DNA of 8,370 nt. Source: a bacterium (lineage in GTDB: Bacteria > UBP15 > UBA6099 > JAJRTR01). Under the pieces are notes generated by a model. That model was not told the DNA's origin and ran no database searches. It saw nothing but the letters and a program-made list of their open reading frames with translations. Positions 309 to 8,243 of the stretch are shown here, piece after piece. Each line of letters starts with the position of its first letter. Position 1 is the first letter of the stretch. The position numbers and the translations under genes are program-made. The stretch lies in assembly GCA_024278215.1 (NCBI GenBank), contig JAJRTR010000079.1, positions 1 to 8,370 on the forward strand. The letters run 5' to 3'.

Positions 309-1358
309 TTACGCACCGATGTGTGAAAACGGAATTACGTAGTAGAATCTGCTGAACTCCCTGAGAATGTTTTCCGCGCCTGCGCGTCGCAGTGGTTCGC
401 AGTCGCCGGTGATGTATGTGAAATAGGAATAGCCGGCCTCCCGCGCGCCCCAGGCTTTCTTGAAACGGTACACACCGCATTCCCTGTCGGCGGAAGCGCC
501 CCAGTTGAAATATTCGCAGCCCGCCGCGACGGCGTCTCTCAAGGCGGTGTCGAGCAGCAGACTGTTGCCCTGGTACTTCGCGTGCCTGCGCTCGAACACA
601 GTCTCATGGCTCATCACACCACGCCGCGACAGGAAAACAAGCAGCCCTGAAACCATCTCGCCACCCGCGAACGCAAAATAAAATCGCGCCTTGCCCTTTT
701 CGCACATGTTCCTCGCCACCGAATCGAAAAACGCGCGCGGTTTCGTGTCGAGGCCGAGAGCACCCATATTCGCGCAGTAAATGTCATAAAACAGTTTCAT
801 GTTGCCTTCTGACAACTCGCGCGAAACCTCGACACCCTGCTTCCGCGCTTTTCGTATGTGATTTTTTACGCTGGGTTTATATGCGAGCGGAGCGGTCAGG
901 TCCGTCAACTGAGTGAAGCGGTCATAGATGTAATCGGGCGCGGCGGTGTTTATGTACCGGCTGCGCAACCCGGGCCTGAGCGGCGACATGACGAATGTTG
1001 CTGTCAGGCAACGACTCGAACGCGCGTAATCGAGCGCGGCGCGCTGAAGCTTTTCAAAAACCGCCTCGGGGTTCTCCGCGTCTTTGTGGAGACACACACC
1101 GCCATAGCTGCCGCTCAGAGGCAGTGAGTTCAGCACCGCGCCGAGCGTGGTTGTCCTCACGAACGCGGGTAGCACACCGGCAGGCGCGCCGGCGTCGTAA
1201 CACACGAAATACACCGGCGGGTCGCCCAGCGTTTCCGCCAGCGCGTCACGCCACTCGATCGAATGCAGAACGGTGCTTTCGCGCGATGCGCCGATCACGC
1301 TGCGGTAGTCTTCTTCCGTTGCGCTTCCGGGACTTATTATTTTTGTTTCGAGATTCAT
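309..1358 (-). CDS. FemAB-like GNAT acyl/aminoacyltransferase
   Basis: 349-aa protein of the FemAB-like branch of the GNAT fold (Acetyltransf_6 type). Visible signs are an N-terminal half with LHSIEWRDAL and GVLPAFV followed by a YGG turn, then a second GNAT-like half with HIRKARKQGVEV, FYDIYCANMGALG, YFAFAGGEMVSG, a HAKYQGNSLL stretch and a C-terminal FNWGAS ... YRFKKAWGA block. That block is the typical end of these proteins. Members add amino acids to peptidoglycan bridges or modify exopolysaccharide or lipid-linked sugars; the exact substrate cannot be read here. No signal peptide, so cytoplasmic. It starts 45 bp after the epimerase stop, suggesting one operon for envelope or surface-glycan modification. 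The start ATG has no good Shine-Dalgarno site, so translation may depend on coupling. Length is normal for the family (about 340-370 aa). Confidence 0.8.
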   Translation of the reverse strand: MNLETKIISPGSATEEDYRSVIGASRESTVLHSIEWRDALAETLGDPPVYFVCYDAGAPAGVLPAFVRTTTLGAVLNSLPLSGSYGGVCLHKDAENPEAVFEKLQRAALDYARSSRCLTATFVMSPLRPGLRSRYINTAAPDYIYDRFTQLTDLTAPLAYKPSVKNHIRKARKQGVEVSRELSEGNMKLFYDIYCANMGALGLDTKPRAFFDSVARNMCEKGKARFYFAFAGGEMVSGLLVFLSRRGVMSHETVFERRHAKYQGNSLLLDTALRDAVAAGCEYFNWGASADRECGVYRFKKAWGAREAGYSYFTYITGDCEPLRRAGAENILREFSRFYYVIPFSHIGA

Positions 1359-1403
1359 CGTCGGGGCCGGGAGTGCTTCGCGCCGAAAATCCGGCGCCGC
1401 CGC

Positions 1404-2390
1404 TTATAAGAGATGCTCTCTGTACCAGTCGATAGTGCCCATCAGCACTTTGCCCACATCGTGTAAGGGCTTGAAATCGAGTAGCTTCTCCGCCTTCGAT
1501 ATGTCGGGCACACGCTGTTCGATGTCTGTGAAATTCACATCGCGGCAACTTATTTTCGACTTGCTCCGTGTCTGCGATTTTATCATTTTAGCGAGCCGGT
1601 ACACCGAAAGCACATTGACCGGATTGCCGATGTTGAAAGACTCGCCGACGGATTTTCTCTTTGTTAGCATCGCCTCGAGCGCGTCCGCCAGGTCGTCGAT
1701 ATAGCACCATGCCCTGATCTGCGCGCCATCGTTATGCACCGTTATCGTTTTGTCCTGCAACGCCTGCAGAATAAAGGTTTTCATCACATGGTCGCCCACG
1801 CGCCGCGGGCCGAATATGTTGAACGGCCTCACTATCACCGTCGGCATTGCGTTTTCCCTGTAGAAGCTCTGAACAAGGTGCTCTCCGGCAACTTTGCTTA
1901 TGGAATAGCTCCAGCGAGCGTCTTTTACGGGACCTAGCACAACGGGCGTGTCTTCACGCACCTGGTAGGCGTTGACACCGAAAACTTCGCTCGTCGAGAA
2001 ATAAAGAAAACGCTCGAGTTTCGGCAGTTCCGCCGCAACTCGCAGAACACACGATGTGCCGGTGAAGTTCGTGTCGATGGTCTTCATCGAATTGTTGAGA
2101 ACCTTCTGCACACCGACAACCGCCGCGGCATGTACAACATGTGTCACGTCATCGTCCACAACATCCGCGATGCGCTCCATGTCCATGACATCACCCTTGT
2201 ATATCGTCACATTGGGATGATCGCGCAGACCGGTATATTTCAGGGAATTTCGCTTATATGAAACATCATACAGAACTACCCTGTTGTCGTCGGCCAGTCT
2301 CTCGGCAAGTGAACTGCCGATGAACCCACCGCCGCCTGTTATGAATATCTTTTTGCCTCTGAGAGCTATGACTGCCGTCTCCTTCTGCAT
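1404..2390 (-). CDS. NAD-dependent nucleotide-sugar epimerase/dehydratase (extended SDR)
   Basis: 328-aa extended short-chain dehydrogenase. The NAD-binding Rossmann motif TGGGGFIG is at residues 18-25, the active-site STSE at 132-135, and the catalytic YxxxK is Y162-SIS-K166. RPFNIFGPRR (188-197) and a FNIGNP element (252-257) are typical of nucleotide-sugar epimerases and dehydratases such as UDP-glucose 4-epimerase or UDP-glucuronate decarboxylase relatives. It probably converts a nucleotide sugar for a surface polysaccharide; which sugar is not visible. It is first of a two-gene unit with the FemAB-like gene. The ATG lacks an upstream Shine-Dalgarno site, and a strong AAGGAG lies just inside the gene (codons 3-4) with no standard start at the right distance, so the start is less certain than the rest. 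It could be host DNA or a phage-carried surface-changing gene. Confidence 0.88.
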   Translation of the reverse strand: MQKETAVIALRGKKIFITGGGGFIGSSLAERLADDNRVVLYDVSYKRNSLKYTGLRDHPNVTIYKGDVMDMERIADVVDDDVTHVVHAAAVVGVQKVLNNSMKTIDTNFTGTSCVLRVAAELPKLERFLYFSTSEVFGVNAYQVREDTPVVLGPVKDARWSYSISKVAGEHLVQSFYRENAMPTVIVRPFNIFGPRRVGDHVMKTFILQALQDKTITVHNDGAQIRAWCYIDDLADALEAMLTKRKSVGESFNIGNPVNVLSVYRLAKMIKSQTRSKSKISCRDVNFTDIEQRVPDISKAEKLLDFKPLHDVGKVLMGTIDWYREHLL

Positions 2391-2673: not shown

Positions 2674-2991
2674 TCACCCCGAACTTAACGCCGCCAGGCG
2701 GCGCCGCCTTTCGGCGCGCATTCGTGCGGACCATGCTTCGAGAGCGCCGGAAGGCGTGTAGGCAACGATGGATTCGAGCGCGCAGTCGGGACACATAACC
2801 GCCGGCTCGCTTCTCTCGCCTCGCTCTACCGCCCGCATGAGAAAGTACAGTCCTTTCAACGACAGCGGCCTGCCGCAGCCCGCGCAGTGTGCAAGGCAAT
2901 GGCCGCAGACAACATTTCCATATATGTCCCTGTTGCCATCGTCGTTTCCGTTTGTTTCGCGGATTTCCAATCCGCAGTAATCACAATTCAT
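2674..2991 (-). CDS. small zinc-binding protein with four CxxC pairs (first gene of the leftward early transcript)
   Basis: 105-aa protein with eight cysteines in four CxxC knuckles: C3/C6, C29/C32, C36/C39 and C67/C70. It probably folds around two zinc ions, followed by a basic Arg-rich tail (MRAERRRRLA) that could touch nucleic acid. I chose the ATG at 2991 over an upstream one at 3027 because AGGAG sits 9 nt before it and the first knuckle begins at once (MNCDYC). The block CAGCGRPLSLKGL ... MCPDCALESIVAY resembles CAVCGRAFEADAL ... VCGGCLDRLLAY in the protein at 4623-5018, so the two share a module. It is the first gene downstream of the leftward repressor-controlled promoter (3332-3359), after a leader of about 330 nt. 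Function unknown; an early regulator or host-takeover role is inference. Confidence 0.75.
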   Translation of the reverse strand: MNCDYCGLEIRETNGNDDGNRDIYGNVVCGHCLAHCAGCGRPLSLKGLYFLMRAVERGERSEPAVMCPDCALESIVAYTPSGALEAWSARMRAERRRRLAALSSG

Positions 2992-3068
2992 TATATTTTT
3001 CTCCTGTTTTATAGTGTCATGTCGCACTTGTAAGTGTGCATGAAAATAATTTAGTGGAAGGAACAGAA

Positions 3069-3104
3069 AGACAAGGGCGCGGTACGGTGACCGCGCCCTT
3101 GTCT
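3069..3104 (-). terminator. perfect 15-bp hairpin in the leftward leader (possible terminator/attenuator)
   Basis: AGACAAGGGCGCGGT (3069-3083) pairs without mismatch with ACCGCGCCCTTGTCT (3090-3104) around a 6-nt loop, ACGGTG. On the minus strand the stem is followed by TTCTGTTCCTTCC, a weak U-rich tail, while the plus side (CTACACTC) is not U-rich. This favours a leftward terminator or pause between the promoter at 3332-3359 and the zinc-protein gene. A roughly 230-260-nt leader RNA ending here is possible. The tip GGTACGGTGACC recurs at 226-237. Between this hairpin and the gene lies another small palindrome, CACTT-GT-AAGTG (3025-3036). Confidence 0.6.
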
Positions 3105-3314
3105 ACACTCAAACGTCGATACAAAGTTGACACGACACCATGTTGTTTCCCGATTTTACATACGAGCCAATTGCAAAATTCTGAATTTCTATTGATAACC
3201 GCTATAACACAAAGTTTCCCCGACGTTCTGTTCTGTACGGTAAACCACCCGTGCTATGTGAAATGGAGAAATGTTGAGATGACAACCGGCGACAAAAACA
3301 GACCGCGATTACAC

Positions 3315-3328
3315 TTCCATATCGCACA
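3315..3328. promoter_or_regulatory. possible degenerate second operator at the leftward promoter
   Basis: TTCCATATCGCACA keeps the ATATC core and most of one arm of the operator TACCATATCTGGTA. It lies exactly 21 bp downstream of the main leftward operator, the same offset that separates the two operators at the rightward promoter. The second arm is poor (CACA), so this is a weak call resting mainly on spacing. Confidence 0.3.
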
Positions 3329-3331
3329 GTA

Positions 3332-3359
3332 ATTATACCAGATATGGTAGTTTTGTCAA
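3332..3359 (-). promoter_or_regulatory. leftward early promoter (PL-like)
   Basis: On the minus strand: TTGACA (3359-3354), 16-bp spacer, TATAAT (3337-3332), both hexamers perfect. The expected start is near 3325, reading toward the zinc-protein gene at 2991. The spacer carries the repressor operator at 3336-3349, so a bound repressor would block RNA polymerase directly. Confidence 0.85.
3336..3349. promoter_or_regulatory. operator OL1 within the leftward promoter
   Basis: TACCAGATATGGTA, a dyad with arms TACCA/TGGTA. Its reverse complement, with one flanking base on each side (CTACCATATCTGGTAT), is identical over 16 bp to the operator in the rightward promoter at 4371-4386. Both lie between -35 and -10 boxes. 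Binding by the neighbouring XRE-like repressor is inferred from position and symmetry. Confidence 0.8.
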
Positions 3360-3586
3360 GAAGAACAGCTAAAAAGCCATTTATGGTGGCCATACCGCTT
3401 TGGAGCAAAAAAATAAAAAAGTTTTCTCCACTTAACAACAGTATTCAGTAGCTTGCTATAGGCTATCGGCAGAAGCGACAGAATCGGGACTGCGGGGACA
3501 TCCGGCAAAAGCGATAAAAACGATTACTACTAAAGGATTATTTCAACACCGGGGCCGTAAATATCTAAAAGTTCTGTCGTGAGAGA
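3360..3586. other. AT-rich non-coding region with imperfect direct repeats
   Basis: No gene with a ribosome site is visible. It contains a 13-bp palindrome TATGGTGGCCATA (3382-3394) upstream of the leftward promoter. Two imperfect 20-nt direct repeats, starting CGGCAGAAGCGA at 3467 and CGGCAAAAGCGA at 3503 (offset 36, 16 of 20 identical), follow. It must hold the promoter for the rightward leader that ends in the 3644-3695 terminator; the best candidate, TTAACA (3432) to CTATAG (about 3456), is weak. Confidence 0.4.
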
Positions 3587-3695
3587 AAAACACGCCTGTT
3601 GTGAAGCCAGACAAATAATAATAACGCCGATTGAGGCGTTTTACCGCCGTTCGGGTTTAAATACAGGCGTGTTTTCCCGAGCGGCGGCTTTTTTT
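3587..3695 (+). ncRNA. candidate structured leader or small RNA with competing folds
   Basis: A perfect 13-bp inverted repeat, AAAACACGCCTGT (3587-3599) / ACAGGCGTGTTTT (3663-3675), encloses a small hairpin AACGCC/GGCGTT (3623-3640). It interlocks with the terminator stem 3644-3655 / 3676-3687, because its 3' arm fills the terminator loop and abuts the terminator's 3' arm. The order A-B-A'-B' is that of a pseudoknot, but a 7-nt linker crossing 13 bp looks too short for both helices to form fully, so they more likely compete. It could be the attenuator of the 55-aa gene at 3761 or a free small RNA ending at the T-tract. No known riboswitch motif was recognised. Confidence 0.55.
3644..3695 (+). 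terminator. strong rho-independent terminator
   Basis: CCGCCGTTCGGG (3644-3655) pairs with CCCGAGCGGCGG (3676-3687): 12 bp with a single U-G pair and a 20-nt loop. C3688 and seven Ts (3689-3695) follow. Direction is rightward. It lies 65 nt before the 55-aa gene, so either it ends a leader or small RNA, or it attenuates that gene. Confidence 0.88.
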
Positions 3696-3760
3696 GTCAC
3701 ACCCTGATGTTAGAATACGGATACTGTACGCAAGTTCAGTCTTTCTGCAGGGGGGAAGAA

Positions 3761-3928
3761 ATGGCAGAATATACTATCAATAAACAGATTACGGATTACA
3801 CGGAAAAAAGAAAAGAAGAAATTATCGAGTGGATACTCGATGGGCGGGACATCTACGGTGACGACATAGAATACGTCGGCGACTGGGTCTATATGGCAGT
3901 CTACCTGCCGCAAAAGCCGGATTGGTGA
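3761..3928 (+). CDS. small acidic protein of unknown function (55 aa)
   Basis: I chose the ATG at 3761, which follows GGGGGAAGAA, a good Shine-Dalgarno site; an in-frame ATG at 3707 lacks one. The protein begins MAEYTINKQI and has a charged helix (EKRKEEIIEWILDG), a cluster of acidic residues (DIYGDDIEYVGD) and an aromatic end (WVYMAVYLPQKPDW). No membrane segment or cysteine. I do not recognise a family. It lies in the phage immunity region between the two operators, convergent with the repressor, and is preceded by the terminator at 3644-3695, which suggests conditional expression. A role in the lysis-lysogeny decision or immunity is conceivable from position only. Confidence 0.6.
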   Translation: MAEYTINKQITDYTEKRKEEIIEWILDGRDIYGDDIEYVGDWVYMAVYLPQKPDW

Positions 3929-3950
3929 ACTATAGAGTCCGGCCCGACTC
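3916..3950. terminator. weak hairpins between convergent genes
   Basis: GCCGGA (3916-3921) / TCCGGC (3938-3943) spans the stop codon of the 55-aa gene, and GAGTC (3935-3939) / GACTC (3946-3950) overlaps it. Both lie between a plus-strand gene ending at 3928 and the minus-strand repressor ending at 3974, where a two-way terminator would be expected. Neither side has a proper T-run, so the call is weak. Confidence 0.3.
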
Positions 3951-3973
3951 GGTTCTTAACCTGCCGCCCGGGT

Positions 3974-4360
3974 TCATTTGTTGCGTTCCGCAGACCTTTG
4001 TTCCTTTATTTTCCGAATCGCTTCAGGGCCGCGGGAGCCGGCGTGCTGTTTTGCCGACTTGACGATGTTTCTTATTGTCCGCCTGTCCAGCGGCGAAAGC
4101 ACACCCCTGCGCTCCGCTTCCTCGATCTCCCTGGCGAGCGCCGACTGAACACCCGCAAGCAGGTCAACCTCGAAGTATTCCTCAAGCTGATCGATGTGCC
4201 CGACCGCCTTCCCTTTGAACCGCTCATAATTGTACTTGCTGGGCGCGAAATAGTTTTCCTGCAAACCCAGCGCCTCCGTCGTCGGCTTAGTACCGTGCGA
4301 CGCAAGTAGTTCCCGCACAATACCGAACAACCGCTCCGAGAAACTTTTTTTGTCACTCAC
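3974..4360 (-). CDS. phage repressor-like protein, XRE-type helix-turn-helix
   Basis: 128 aa from a GTG at 4360. Residues about 7-67 look like an XRE/Cro-CI domain: helix FSERLFGIVRELLASHG, a TTEALGL turn, NYFAPSKYNYERFKG, and the typical closing HIDQLEEYFEVDL. The C-terminal half is charged and helical (ALAREIEEAERR, TIRNIVKSAKQH) and may dimerise; there is no LexA-type peptidase domain. An upstream in-frame GTG at 4411 has AGGGAG close by, but its extra 17 residues would be encoded by the operators themselves, and the domain starts naturally after 4360, where only AGG at 9-nt spacing is seen. It is divergent from the rightward early promoter and sits between two copies of one operator, the classic place for a lysogeny repressor. 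DNA binding is inferred. Confidence 0.75.
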   Translation of the reverse strand: MSDKKSFSERLFGIVRELLASHGTKPTTEALGLQENYFAPSKYNYERFKGKAVGHIDQLEEYFEVDLLAGVQSALAREIEEAERRGVLSPLDRRTIRNIVKSAKQHAGSRGPEAIRKIKEQRSAERNK

Positions 4361-4389
4361 TTGACACGACCTACCATATCTGGTATTAT
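4361..4389 (+). promoter_or_regulatory. rightward early promoter (PR-like)
   Basis: TTGACA (4361-4366), 17-bp spacer, TATTAT (4384-4389), near-consensus sigma-70. The transcript should start near 4396 and run through a leader of about 225 nt into the gene at 4623 and on toward packaging. The spacer holds operator OR1 and the start region holds OR2, so repression by steric block is expected. Confidence 0.88.
4372..4385. promoter_or_regulatory. operator OR1 within the rightward promoter
   Basis: TACCATATCTGGTA lies between the -35 and -10 boxes. With flanks (4371-4386) it is the exact 16-bp reverse complement of 3335-3350 at the leftward promoter. Confidence 0.82.
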
Positions 4390-4392
4390 TGA

Positions 4393-4406
4393 TACCGTAA
4401 CAGGTA
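4393..4406. promoter_or_regulatory. operator OR2 over the rightward start site
   Basis: TACCGTAACAGGTA keeps both TACC/GGTA half-sites with the same 6-bp gap. It starts exactly 21 bp (two helical turns) after OR1, so two repressor dimers would bind the same face of the DNA. A weaker relative, TACCTGATTCGGAA, is at 4420-4433. Confidence 0.65.
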
Positions 4407-4622
4407 GGCACTCGCTCCCTACCTGATTCGGAAGCGTTATTACCACTTATTTATCTGATTATAACACGTTTATTTTCGCCGCCGCTGTTTTTTTAAGAAA
4501 ATCTTCAGGGCGGATGCTTCGAAAGGATGAAGCGGGACGTGCCACCGGCTTTTCGAGACGGAAACCTGTTTTCGCCCGGCGGCGTATCGAAAAGAACGTG
4601 AAACGGGAAAGGAATAAATCTT
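4401..4622 (+). other. structured leader of the rightward early transcript
   Basis: Long 5' leader with possible hairpins: CAGGTAGG (4401-4408) / CCTACCTG (4418-4425) within the first 30 nt of the RNA; GCTTC (4516-4520) / GAAGC (4529-4533); and CTTTTCGA (4549-4556) / TCGAAAAG (4587-4594) around a smaller stem, CGGAAA/TTTTCG. Each is near chance frequency alone. The Shine-Dalgarno site AAAGGA of the 4623 gene remains unpaired. Confidence 0.35.
4458..4466 (-). promoter_or_regulatory. extended -10 promoter for the repressor (PRM-like)
   Basis: On the minus strand TGTTATAAT, a perfect TATAAT preceded by the TGn extension, with no -35 match. The start would be near 4451, giving a leader of about 90 nt that crosses OR2 and OR1 before the repressor start, so self-repression is possible. 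Confidence 0.55.
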
Positions 4623-5018
4623 ATGTCAGTTGCAGAGAAAGAAATAGTGATCGCCGGCAGTGAAAACGGCGCGGCCGGCGCTTATGCGGAGCAGCGGCGC
4701 ATCGTATACCGGCGCGGTGACAGGCGATGCGCTCATATATGGCACGCCACAGGCGTTGTGGCGGGCGGCCACGCGCGTTTTCGATGCGGAAAATGCGGCG
4801 CGCTGATGAGTGAGCCTGTCTGCCAGGAGCCGCTGCGTTTTACACAATGTGTGGTGCCCGCGGGGCACGCGCTGTGCGCAGTGTGCGGCAGGGCGTTCGA
4901 GGCGGACGCGCTCGAGCGCGCCCCCTATGGCCGCGGGCGGCTGGTCTGCGGCGGCTGCCTGGACCGGCTCCTTGCCTATAACAACCACGAAGAGCCGTTT
5001 TTTTTCAGGCTGATATAA
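4623..5018 (+). CDS. zinc-binding early protein with CxxC knuckles
   Basis: 131 aa, start chosen at ATG 4623 with AAAGGA 9 nt upstream. Cysteine pairs are C55/C58, C85/C88 and C109/C112, with single C36, C67 and C76 and H38 and H41, enough for two or three zinc sites. The C-terminal module CAVCGRAFEADAL ... LVCGGCLDRLLAY parallels the protein at 2674-2991. The N-terminal 50 residues are Ala/Gly- and Arg-rich and not recognised. First gene after the rightward repressor-controlled promoter and 51 bp before the small-terminase-like gene. A nucleic-acid-binding or regulatory role is inference; no enzyme motif is seen. Confidence 0.72.
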   Translation: MSVAEKEIVIAGSENGAAGAYAEQRRIVYRRGDRRCAHIWHATGVVAGGHARFRCGKCGALMSEPVCQEPLRFTQCVVPAGHALCAVCGRAFEADALERAPYGRGRLVCGGCLDRLLAYNNHEEPFFFRLI

Positions 5019-5069: not shown

Positions 5070-5762
5070 ATGAAAACAACAAGCGACGATTTTATACGAT
5101 GCCGCGCTATAAGCAAAAGTACCGGCACGCAGTGCAGGCACGCCGCAATGCGGGGCAGCGATTATTGCCCGACGCACCGCGCGAAAATGCGCAAACGCCC
5201 TGTGCGGAATAAAACGGCGTCGGCGGCGCAGGATACGTCGCGTGCGGCGTCGGGAAACGCGCCGCGGAACGCGGTCCAAAACGCGCCGCGGGTCGAGTCC
5301 GAAACACCGGTTGCGACTGCATCCGCGAGAGCGGCGGGCGGCATGTATCCGGCACGCGGCGCGAGAGCGATTACGACGCGTATCATGGAGATGCGCGACG
5401 ACCCGGACCTGCTGACGCTGCGCACGGAGGTGGCGACGCTGAAGGCGATGCTCGAGGACGCGCTGGGTCGGCTCGACGAGGCGCGCATGAGCGACGACGC
5501 GGAATCGGCGGTGCCGGCGGCGGAGAAACGGGTCGAGAGCCTGACGATGAGCATACTGTCGGCCGGCGAGAAGTTCACGCGGGTCGAGGAGCGCCGCCGG
5601 GGCGTGCTCACGGCGTCCGAGATCGGCGTTATTGTCGACAGAATAAAAGAGAGGGTGATCGATGTTGTCCGAAAAGCAGACGAAGACGATAGTCCTGAAG
5701 AGACCGCTCGACGCATCGCTGAGGCGTTCTCTGCGATCGAAATTGTCGGCAGCGGCGACTGA
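5070..5762 (+). CDS. putative terminase small subunit with N-terminal zinc finger
   Basis: 230 aa, start ATG 5070 with a GAGG site. The N-terminus has C11-x10-C22-x10-C33-x2-H36 (CRAISKS ... YCPTH), like the DUF5763-type zinc knuckle. A low-complexity Ala/Pro/Arg linker (about 45-95) follows. Then comes a helical segment, DPDLLTLRTEVATLKAMLED, and a region ending TASEIGVIVDRIKERVIDVV ... ARRIAEAF, a pattern I know from phage proteins encoded directly before the large terminase. By that position and pattern it should recognise phage DNA and load the large subunit. Its last 101 bp overlap the large terminase in another frame. It could instead be an accessory zinc protein. Confidence 0.65.
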   Translation: MKTTSDDFIRCRAISKSTGTQCRHAAMRGSDYCPTHRAKMRKRPVRNKTASAAQDTSRAASGNAPRNAVQNAPRVESETPVATASARAAGGMYPARGARAITTRIMEMRDDPDLLTLRTEVATLKAMLEDALGRLDEARMSDDAESAVPAAEKRVESLTMSILSAGEKFTRVEERRRGVLTASEIGVIVDRIKERVIDVVRKADEDDSPEETARRIAEAFSAIEIVGSGD

Positions 5763-7440
5763 CATACTGGAACGCGCCCTGCCGCGCCGAAGTTCGACCA
5801 TCGGACGCGCCGACTGGGCCTGCCGCTACGCTTCGATAGACGGCCGCCGCTTCAGTTTCGAGCGTCACGAATACCTGCGCGGCATCTACGAATGCGACCA
5901 CCCGAATATTGTGCTCGAAAAGGCGGCGCAGATGGGCGGGAGCGTGTTCGGCATCATCGACGCGCTCTGGGCCATCGACACAGGCAGGGTGAAAAAAGTC
6001 ATCTACTTTTTCCCGACCGCCGCCGATGTCGAGGACTTCTCGCACGACCGCGTCAGGCCGATGATCCTGGATTGTCCCCGTTTGTCATCACGTGTGAAAG
6101 GGATCGACAACGCCGGCTACAAGCAGTTCCTCGATCCCGTGGACGGCTCGCTCCGGGCGGCGATATATTTCCGCGGCATGAAGTCGAAGGTTTCGACATC
6201 TTCGGTGCCCGCCGACCAGATAATGATCGACGAGCGCGACAAGGTGTCGGTGCGCGACTACGAACTCGCCCTCAAGCGCATCTCGCATTCCGAAAAAGGC
6301 TATCGGCGCGAGGCGTGCACGCCCACGGTGTCGGACTACGGCATCGACGCTGTTTTCCTTCGCTCGGACATGAGATGGTGGACGATGAAATGCGCCGCCT
6401 GCGGCGAATGGAACCAGCCGGAGAAGACGTTCCGCGACGACGGCGGCCCCGCGCATGTTCTGTATGCCGTGGACGGCGACGTATTCCTGGGCTGCCGCAG
6501 ATGCGGCGCGCGCCTGGAACCGGCCGCGGGCGAATGGGTGGCCGACTGGCCGGACCGCTCGGATATCGCGGGCTTCCACATCTCGCAACTTTACAGCCAG
6601 GTGGTGCAGTCGGGCCGCCCGATACAGAAGGTGATACTCGACGACTGGCGCAACACGCGCTATGTGCAGGATTTCTGGAATTCGCGTGTCGGGTTGCCGT
6701 TCGAGGACAACACGACTTCGATCACGCGCGAGATGCTCAACGCTTGCGACGGCGACTACGAGATGAAGCGACGCGGCACCGCCTGCACGATGGGCGTCGA
6801 TCAGGGGAATGTGCTGCACGCTGTCGTGTCTTCATACAGCAACAGCGCGCGCCGCGTACTGTTCGCCGGTGTGCTCGAACGGTTCGACCAACTCGACGAG
6901 CTGATGAAAACTTATGACGTGCGGACGTGTGTAATAGACGGACTGCCCAACACGCACAGCGCGCGCGAGTTCGCCGCGCGTTTTCCCGGTCGCGTCTATC
7001 TCTGTTTTTACAGCGCGAGCGCGAAGGGCGAAACGCGGTGGAGCGAGTCCGATTCGACAGTGTCCGTGAACCGCACCGAGGCGCTGGACGCGGCGCTCGA
7101 AAGTTACGCGCGCCGCGAGGTGCGTCTGCCGCGCGGCGCGGTGATCGAGGAGCAGTTCAAGCAGCAGATGTGCAACATGGCGCGCAAGCCGATCAGGGGC
7201 GAACTGGGAGAGATAACCGGTTTTGAATGGGTGCGGCGCGGTGCGGATCATTTTCGCCATGCCGACAGCTACGACTGCATCGCCGGTACGCGGCGCGGCC
7301 GCGACCTGGGTGAGATACTGCTGGGCGTGGCGTCCGAAGAGCCGCGCGCCGGTTTCCACACGCCCGGCTCGGAGTTGCCGGGTGGCAACAGCCGCGTTGC
7401 AGGCGGCAGCGATGAAAAGAGGAGTATGGATGAGTGGTGA
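5662..7440 (+). CDS. terL: phage terminase large subunit, GpA/lambda-like
   Basis: 592-aa packaging motor that cuts concatemeric DNA and pumps it into proheads. The ATPase domain has a deviant Walker A, K87-AAQMGG-S94, with the lysine at the front as in lambda gpA (KSARVGYS). Walker B is IMID190-E191 and the coupling motif ACTPT is at 218-222. A zinc ribbon sits at C244/C247 and C278/C281. FHISQLYS (305-312) is a GpA-family signature. The RNase-H-like nuclease has D380 (GVDQG), D426 (VIDG) and D535/D538 in DHFRHADSYD. Start ATG 5662 has GAGAGGG upstream at good spacing but overlaps the previous gene by 101 bp; no better start exists before the conserved region. Length is usual and the gene looks intact. 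Confidence 0.93.
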   Translation: MLSEKQTKTIVLKRPLDASLRRSLRSKLSAAATDILERALPRRSSTIGRADWACRYASIDGRRFSFERHEYLRGIYECDHPNIVLEKAAQMGGSVFGIIDALWAIDTGRVKKVIYFFPTAADVEDFSHDRVRPMILDCPRLSSRVKGIDNAGYKQFLDPVDGSLRAAIYFRGMKSKVSTSSVPADQIMIDERDKVSVRDYELALKRISHSEKGYRREACTPTVSDYGIDAVFLRSDMRWWTMKCAACGEWNQPEKTFRDDGGPAHVLYAVDGDVFLGCRRCGARLEPAAGEWVADWPDRSDIAGFHISQLYSQVVQSGRPIQKVILDDWRNTRYVQDFWNSRVGLPFEDNTTSITREMLNACDGDYEMKRRGTACTMGVDQGNVLHAVVSSYSNSARRVLFAGVLERFDQLDELMKTYDVRTCVIDGLPNTHSAREFAARFPGRVYLCFYSASAKGETRWSESDSTVSVNRTEALDAALESYARREVRLPRGAVIEEQFKQQMCNMARKPIRGELGEITGFEWVRRGADHFRHADSYDCIAGTRRGRDLGEILLGVASEEPRAGFHTPGSELPGGNSRVAGGSDEKRSMDEW

Positions 7441-7538: not shown

Positions 7539-7862
7539 ATGTATGGAACAAGATTGAAATGTGACAGGCGACCGTGTTGCGTGATGGGCGACATGATGGT
7601 GGAGGAAATTTTGAACACAATGGCGGCGCGGCACGCGAGCCGCGGCGTTATTCAGTACTGTGTGCTGCCCTACGCGCTGGACGATCTGATGGAGATCATA
7701 ACCGACATCGAGGCGTCGCCCACCGGCGATTCCAGCCGTAACGGCCTTGTGCTCAGCCTCGTGAAGCGAGTGATCACCGACAGGCTGCGAAAAGCCGCGG
7801 GGTGCATCGGCAGGGCCATCGAGAACGGGCACAGGCTGGCGGTCGAGGAGTTGAAGTTCTGA
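7539..7862 (+). CDS. hypothetical phage protein (107 aa)
   Basis: Start ATG 7539 follows GGGAGG at 6-nt spacing, one of the best ribosome sites in the window. The N-terminus is Cys-containing (LKCDRRPCCVMG), followed by helices EEILNTMAARHAS, YALDDLMEIITDI, LVLSLVKRVITDRLRK and IGRAIENGHRLAVEEL. No family recognised, no membrane segment. It lies between terL and the HTH gene, where phages often have a portal or regulatory gene, but it is far too short for a portal. Confidence 0.7.
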   Translation: MYGTRLKCDRRPCCVMGDMMVEEILNTMAARHASRGVIQYCVLPYALDDLMEIITDIEASPTGDSSRNGLVLSLVKRVITDRLRKAAGCIGRAIENGHRLAVEELKF

Positions 7863-7943: not shown

Positions 7944-8243
7944 ATGAACTACCCGCTTTTCGAGCGTTCTGAAGGGTTCTACCATTCGCTGGCACTGCTG
8001 CCCGACTGGGAAAACCGGCTGGTGCGACGGCTGGACATCGAGGAATTCGCCGTGAGCGATCTCGACAGCGCCGAACTGACTATCCTGCATTTCAATCAGC
8101 TCGGCTACACGATCAGGGAGATAAGCTGGTACTACGGAGTGAAGGACCGACAGGTGCGCCGCCGTCTAAAGAAGATATACCACCGTCTGGCTGTGCGGCA
8201 GGCGGATACGAGCGAAGACGAAAAGGAGTGTGATGCACATTGA
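7944..8243 (+). CDS. sigma-70 region 4-like helix-turn-helix protein
   Basis: 99 aa, start ATG 7944 after GGAACGAGG. Residues 43-83 (AELTILHFNQLGYTIREISWYYGVKDRQVRRRLKKIYHRLA) have the sigma region 4 / LuxR-type tetrahelical HTH pattern: a helix, a Gly-Tyr-Thr turn, the EI-xx-Y-GV turn and the basic recognition helix. The N-terminus has no sigma region 2, so it is not a full sigma factor. Small HTH proteins of this kind in phages often control late genes (for example ArpU-like activators); that role is inference. Its stop TGA overlaps the TTG start of the next gene (TTGA), pointing to coupled translation. Confidence 0.75.
   Translation: MNYPLFERSEGFYHSLALLPDWENRLVRRLDIEEFAVSDLDSAELTILHFNQLGYTIREISWYYGVKDRQVRRRLKKIYHRLAVRQADTSEDEKECDAH

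Follow-up and report, generated by a model that had tools for sequence, protein, structure and literature searches.

Organization of the locus

The window analysed here is an entire contig (C49; 8,370 bp) from genome G000, whose assembly comprises 207 contigs and 4.5 Mb. A gene for a predicted XRE-like repressor lies between two outward promoters, and phage-type packaging genes follow to the right. The features on which the analysis rests are given below.

2674-2991, minus strand: 105-aa Cys-rich ORF past the terminator, weakly similar to Lar restriction-alleviation proteins
3069-3104, minus strand: strong intrinsic terminator (15-bp stem), which ends the leftward transcript after ~260 nt
3332-3359, minus strand: leftward promoter, TTGACA-16-TATAAT, 12/12 consensus, in this genome only
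3336-3349, minus strand: putative left operator dyad, with a 16-bp context identical to that of the right one
3585-3701, plus strand: structured, attenuator-like RNA, with P1 at 3587-3599/3663-3675, terminator P3 at 3645-3656/3677-3689 and a hairpin, P2
3761-3928, plus strand: conserved 55-aa ORF (47 aa in relatives), downstream of the RNA and convergent with the repressor gene
3974-4360, minus strand: repressor gene, 128 aa, GTG start at 4360, with an XRE/lambda-repressor-like N-terminal domain by prediction
4361-4389, plus strand: rightward promoter (PR), TTGACA-17-TATTAT, 11/12, its -35 abutting the repressor start codon; same layout in five relatives
4372-4385, plus strand: putative right operator dyad TACCATATCTGGTA, TACC-N6-GGTA in six genomes, with TA common to the -10
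4393-4406, plus strand: putative second operator TACCGTAACAGGTA, TACC/GGTA
4458-4466, minus strand: possible extended -10 by motif, TGTTATAAT, opposed to PR, from which the repressor gene could be transcribed leftward
4623-5018, plus strand: first gene of the PR operon, a Cys-rich zinc-ribbon-like protein with a positional counterpart in relatives
5070-5762, plus strand: 230-aa ORF preceding the terminase gene, weakly similar to phage terminase-small/unknown proteins
5662-7440, plus strand: terminase large subunit, GpA type (phrog_675, 3e-95)
7539-7862, plus strand: 107-aa cassette ORF with no assigned family
7944-8243, plus strand: 99-aa cassette protein, HTH/sigma-region-4-like

FemAB/GNAT-like and nucleotide-sugar epimerase genes, apparently belonging to the host, lie left of the cassette (309-2390, minus strand), and a tandem repeat with a unit of ~32 bp is found at the contig end (1-120).

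The packaging cassette

Relatives of the repressor were found once each in five genomes of the same order, at 48-54% identity and in UBP15-type MAGs only; among the literature matches listed for UBP15, the word referred to ubiquitin proteases only. The six genomes carry the same set of cassette genes with open frames, and the terminase motifs, judged by eye, are intact. A Mu-type portal gene follows in the relatives (PF06074, 1e-79 and 9e-76). The portal gene of the present genome stands at the start of another contig (G000:C36:357-1694), which on gene order we infer to continue the window, the two contig ends not overlapping. Between two species of one genus, dN/dS is 0.057 for the terminase and 0.042 for the portal, indicating purifying selection. 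Searches with the terminase large subunit returned no close relative among viral contigs and, in phage records, distant relatives only (<30% identity among the matches listed).

In G000, G001, G003 and G005 the searches revealed no capsid, tail or integrase gene next to the cassette, and what follows the portal is of host type or at least not phage-like. Capsids of the Mu gpT and HK97 families are confined to other contigs, in G002, G003 and G000, and neither PF05065 nor PF10124 recovered a capsid locus common to the genomes. One contig of G003 (C64) is a separate Mu-like prophage, and an HK97-type capsid gene is present at G000:C29:10587-11429, with one in-frame TGA that may reflect a pseudogene or recoding. 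The controlled unit is a host-embedded, retained packaging cassette and not a recognisable prophage.

Promoters and shared putative operator sites

A first-pass annotation of this DNA had described a single 16-bp site within both outward promoters, inverted and about 1 kb apart, and this description holds: the sequence CTACCATATCTGGTAT is identical at the two promoters, where it runs over part of the -10 hexamer, and the two copies are inverted and separated by 1,036 bp. The wider inverted pair (3331-3350 and 4371-4390) spans 20 nt at 95% identity around the exact 16-bp core. An exact distant inverted match of 16 arose in none of 300 dinucleotide shuffles of 3000-4800, where the longest was 14. 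Across the whole 4.5-Mb genome the 14-bp core with 0-1 mismatch occurs at these two places only. Sites with 2-3 mismatches are at the level of a reversed-pattern control, and a regulon search gave no further operators above control; with no other strong site in the genome, the regulator appears to be local.

The promoters themselves are as first described, perfect on the left and near-perfect on the right, and both have an extended TG. The dyad had been placed between the -35 and the -10; it does lie inside the promoter, but not purely between the hexamers, as TACC-N6-GGTA takes in the first two bases of each -10. A second site 21 bp downstream, which had been proposed at both promoters, is confirmed on the right, where 8/8 positions agree at exactly +21. 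The degenerate counterpart proposed on the left (TGTGCGATATGGAA) agrees at 4/8, the same as the +18 register and no better than chance, and is not retained.

The putative right operator in relatives

The earlier account would have been contradicted by relatives with the same repressor in which the dyad is missing; all five relatives keep TACC-N6-GGTA in register together with a half-site 21 bp on. Throughout the six genomes, the TTGAC of the -35 lies directly against the GTG start codon, the dyad shares the TA of the -10, and the spacer is 17-18. The half-site exactly 21 bp downstream reads GGTA, or AGTA in one genome; at this second site the relatives keep the right half-site, (A/G)GTAG, and the left half is not conserved. 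This register is kept although the repressors are 48-54% identical. At the promoter, four of the six hardly differ from one another, and the comparison thus represents three independent lineages. By a rough count, an exact TACC-N6-GGTA in ~30 positions is expected once per ~2,000 sequences. Some of the dyad's conservation could have other causes, since its left half coincides in part with the complement of the repressor's Shine-Dalgarno stretch and its right half with the -10; even with the TACC half granted to the ribosome-binding stretch, the other half is still, again by rough count, a 1-in-256 match per further lineage. We regard the right-hand operator as very probably real, and as serving a repressor that would be autoregulated.

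The repressor protein

The earlier designation of the 128-aa product as XRE-like is favoured by its predicted N-terminal fold and not by family searches: Pfam, PHROG and NCBIfam gave no match at a meaningful score, nor did a PDB sequence profile search. No relative was found in viral contigs or phage records, and a DNA search for distant matches between 3300-4440 and phages was likewise negative. The full-length AlphaFold model is poor (pLDDT 46.7). Its first 78 residues are predicted better (pLDDT 79), with a helix pattern typical of XRE domains. Foldseek returned 21 PDB matches to this N-terminal model, mostly XRE, C-protein, DdrO and CII structures, with E-values of 1 or more in this list and >0.6 throughout, and a second structural comparison (VIA) gave Z up to 7.5. 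An XRE-type fold of the N-terminus thus has moderate support from structure prediction. Residues 73-105 have a weak similarity to 186-CII/YmfL.

The absence of a LexA-type cleavage domain, also part of the first description, is upheld. Searches found no C-terminal S24 peptidase domain, and 128 aa is too short for a LexA/S24 domain; release from repression therefore cannot use LexA-type self-cleavage.

A conserved RNA and a small ORF

Between the leftward promoter and the 3' end of the repressor gene lie the structured RNA and the 55-aa ORF. A covariance model built from the relatives alone finds the copy in the window at E = 8e-14. The RNA is present in six of 145 genomes searched, the same six, and in each the sole strong covariance match is at the cassette. 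Pairs changed on both sides number 9/34 against a mean of 2.8 in shuffles, none of 500 of which reach 9; the counts for P1 and P2 lean on the model, and P3 is not in it. Rfam gave no match at 3585-3701 even at E up to 5. P1 (13 bp) and the terminator P3 cross each other; given this length and the 1-6 nt joining them, the two are probably alternative helices, as in an attenuator.

The ORF downstream of the RNA has no known relatives beyond the conserved set. Small antirepressors are known to inactivate repressors that lack a peptidase domain (PMC10432266, PMC3121763), and in N15 the antirepressor is itself controlled by a small RNA, according to a reference cited in PMC10432266. By this analogy, and by its position and size, the 55-aa ORF is the first candidate for an inducer or antirepressor.

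The left side

The left promoter and dyad are absent from all five relatives. No ORF of at least 20 aa lies wholly within the left transcript on the same strand, leaving it non-coding up to the terminator, and apart from the terminator the leader RNA folds no better than shuffles. For the 105-aa Cys-rich ORF past the terminator, a search of 60 genomes found no relative. The ten bases that open the right promoter, TTGACACGAC, recur at 3127-3136 (plus strand) without a -10, and the left side may have arisen when parts of the operator region were copied.

These results bear on the broadest of the earlier claims, a compact, paired, lambda-like immunity switch with two arms. It is not supported as a general design, since the left operator, promoter and gene are absent from the five relatives, and even here the left transcript reaches a strong terminator before any gene. 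The two-armed picture applies to this one genome at most. The label "phage immunity" is doubtful as well, because the controlled unit is a short chromosomal terminase and portal cassette without capsid, tail or integrase genes beside it.

Proposed control of the cassette

The locus is best read, in our view, as an autorepressed switch that controls a retained packaging cassette, and we consider this likely. The 128-aa protein, with a lambda-repressor fold, would bind as a dimer to TACC-N6-GGTA over the -10 of PR, and a weaker site two helical turns downstream would be bound cooperatively. Binding would shut the operon, comprising the zinc-ribbon gene first, then the terminase large subunit, and the portal on the next contig. 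The repressor would also limit its own expression, because the operator spans its own ribosome-binding region and the path of its transcript. In this genome, the second copy of operator and promoter would control the short leftward transcript. Release from repression may come from the conserved ~50-aa ORF, perhaps gated by the attenuator-like RNA before it.

Several known systems resemble parts of this arrangement. As in lambda CI/Cro, a small HTH repressor gene is divergent from a strong promoter with an operator inside, and in this genome the outward promoters are paired; unlike lambda, with its three operator sites, there is one main dyad and a weak second site, the left arm is not conserved, the repressor has no cleavage domain, and no integrase or lytic genes surround it. 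Restriction-modification (R-M) controller proteins such as C.Esp1396I and C.AhdI share the predicted small XRE-fold dimer, the tandem operators about two turns apart and the geometry of autoregulation, whereas here there are no R-M genes, the dyad lies on the -10 of a near-consensus promoter, and no sequence similarity was detected. Phages with non-cleavable repressors and antirepressors (N15, 186 Tum, Salmonella prophages; PMC10432266, PMC3121763) likewise have a peptidase-less repressor beside a small ORF, but the antirepressor function is here guessed from position, for an ORF without known relatives. In gene transfer agents (GTAs) and domesticated prophages, too, purifying selection has kept phage packaging genes in a bacterial lineage; known GTA clusters, however, carry capsid and tail genes, and this cassette has terminase and portal only.

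Other explanations were weighed against the autorepressed switch. The protein could be an activator or dual regulator, like the R-M controllers or CII, acting at two tandem sites: the top structural neighbours include C.Esp1396I, C.AhdI, C.BclI and the CII proteins of lambda and 186, and both the weak 186-CII/YmfL similarity and the 21-bp spacing of the sites fit. We consider this unlikely, as a protein bound to the primary dyad, over the -10 of a near-consensus promoter, should get in the way of polymerase, and the repressor coding sequence occupies the upstream positions of an activator. The promoters themselves also favour repression: close to consensus and overlapped at the -10, they do not depend on an activator. 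A complete lambda-like prophage immunity switch, with PL and PR both held down and early functions of the left arm lying after an antiterminated leader, would account for the identical operators in two outward promoters, for the terminase and portal on the right, and for a left transcript that, resembling the lambda PL leader, meets a terminator before the weakly Lar-like gene. It is nonetheless quite unlikely, given that promoter, operator and gene on the left are missing in five relatives, that the cassette has no capsid, tail or integrase beside it in the genomes examined, and that the repressor occurs in no viral contig or phage record.

We think it equally doubtful that the dyads are incidental, their conservation due to the -10 and the ribosome-binding stretch and their duplication to chance or copying. 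The left half does overlap the AGGT stretch before the GTG start and the right half does share TA with the -10, but neither signal explains why the right half always keeps its GG, at a fixed distance of 6 bp from TACC, while the spacer and -10 vary; the GTAG at +21 lies outside both signals, and an exact 16-bp copy stands at the second promoter. It is very improbable that the locus is what remains of a decaying prophage and no longer has a function. The missing capsid, tail and integrase genes and the differing gene order around the cassette would suit such a remnant; the open frames, intact terminase motifs, dN/dS of ~0.05 for terminase and portal and the same gene set in six genomes argue against it.

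We also advance a rather speculative proposal, which on balance we hold to be improbable: that UBP15 bacteria keep the capsid-less terminase-portal cassette as a host function, either a DNA-translocating device or one component of a transfer agent spread over several loci, with a repressor of a new family keeping it off and a small, RNA-attenuated antirepressor turning it on. If our account of the locus is right, an uncultured lineage would retain, under strong selection and still regulated, the packaging motor and portal of a phage but none of its other parts. A short list of components could be tested in a laboratory strain: the operator logic, the orphan repressor family, the attenuator-like RNA and the small ORF.

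Surroundings of the cassette in relatives

Gene order flanking the cassette varies between species, and synteny there is poor in general. In G003, where an empty insertion site was sought, synteny around the cassette is lost generally, and the differing order is no evidence on mobility either way. The neighbours of the cassette in G001 include genes for an acyl-CoA dehydrogenase, a DUF2804 protein, an exonuclease and a radical SAM protein. Intergenic repeats of ~150 bp are abundant on both sides of the cassette in G001, G003, G004 and G006, and in G006 a REP-associated transposase-like ORF, identified by eye, lies to its left.
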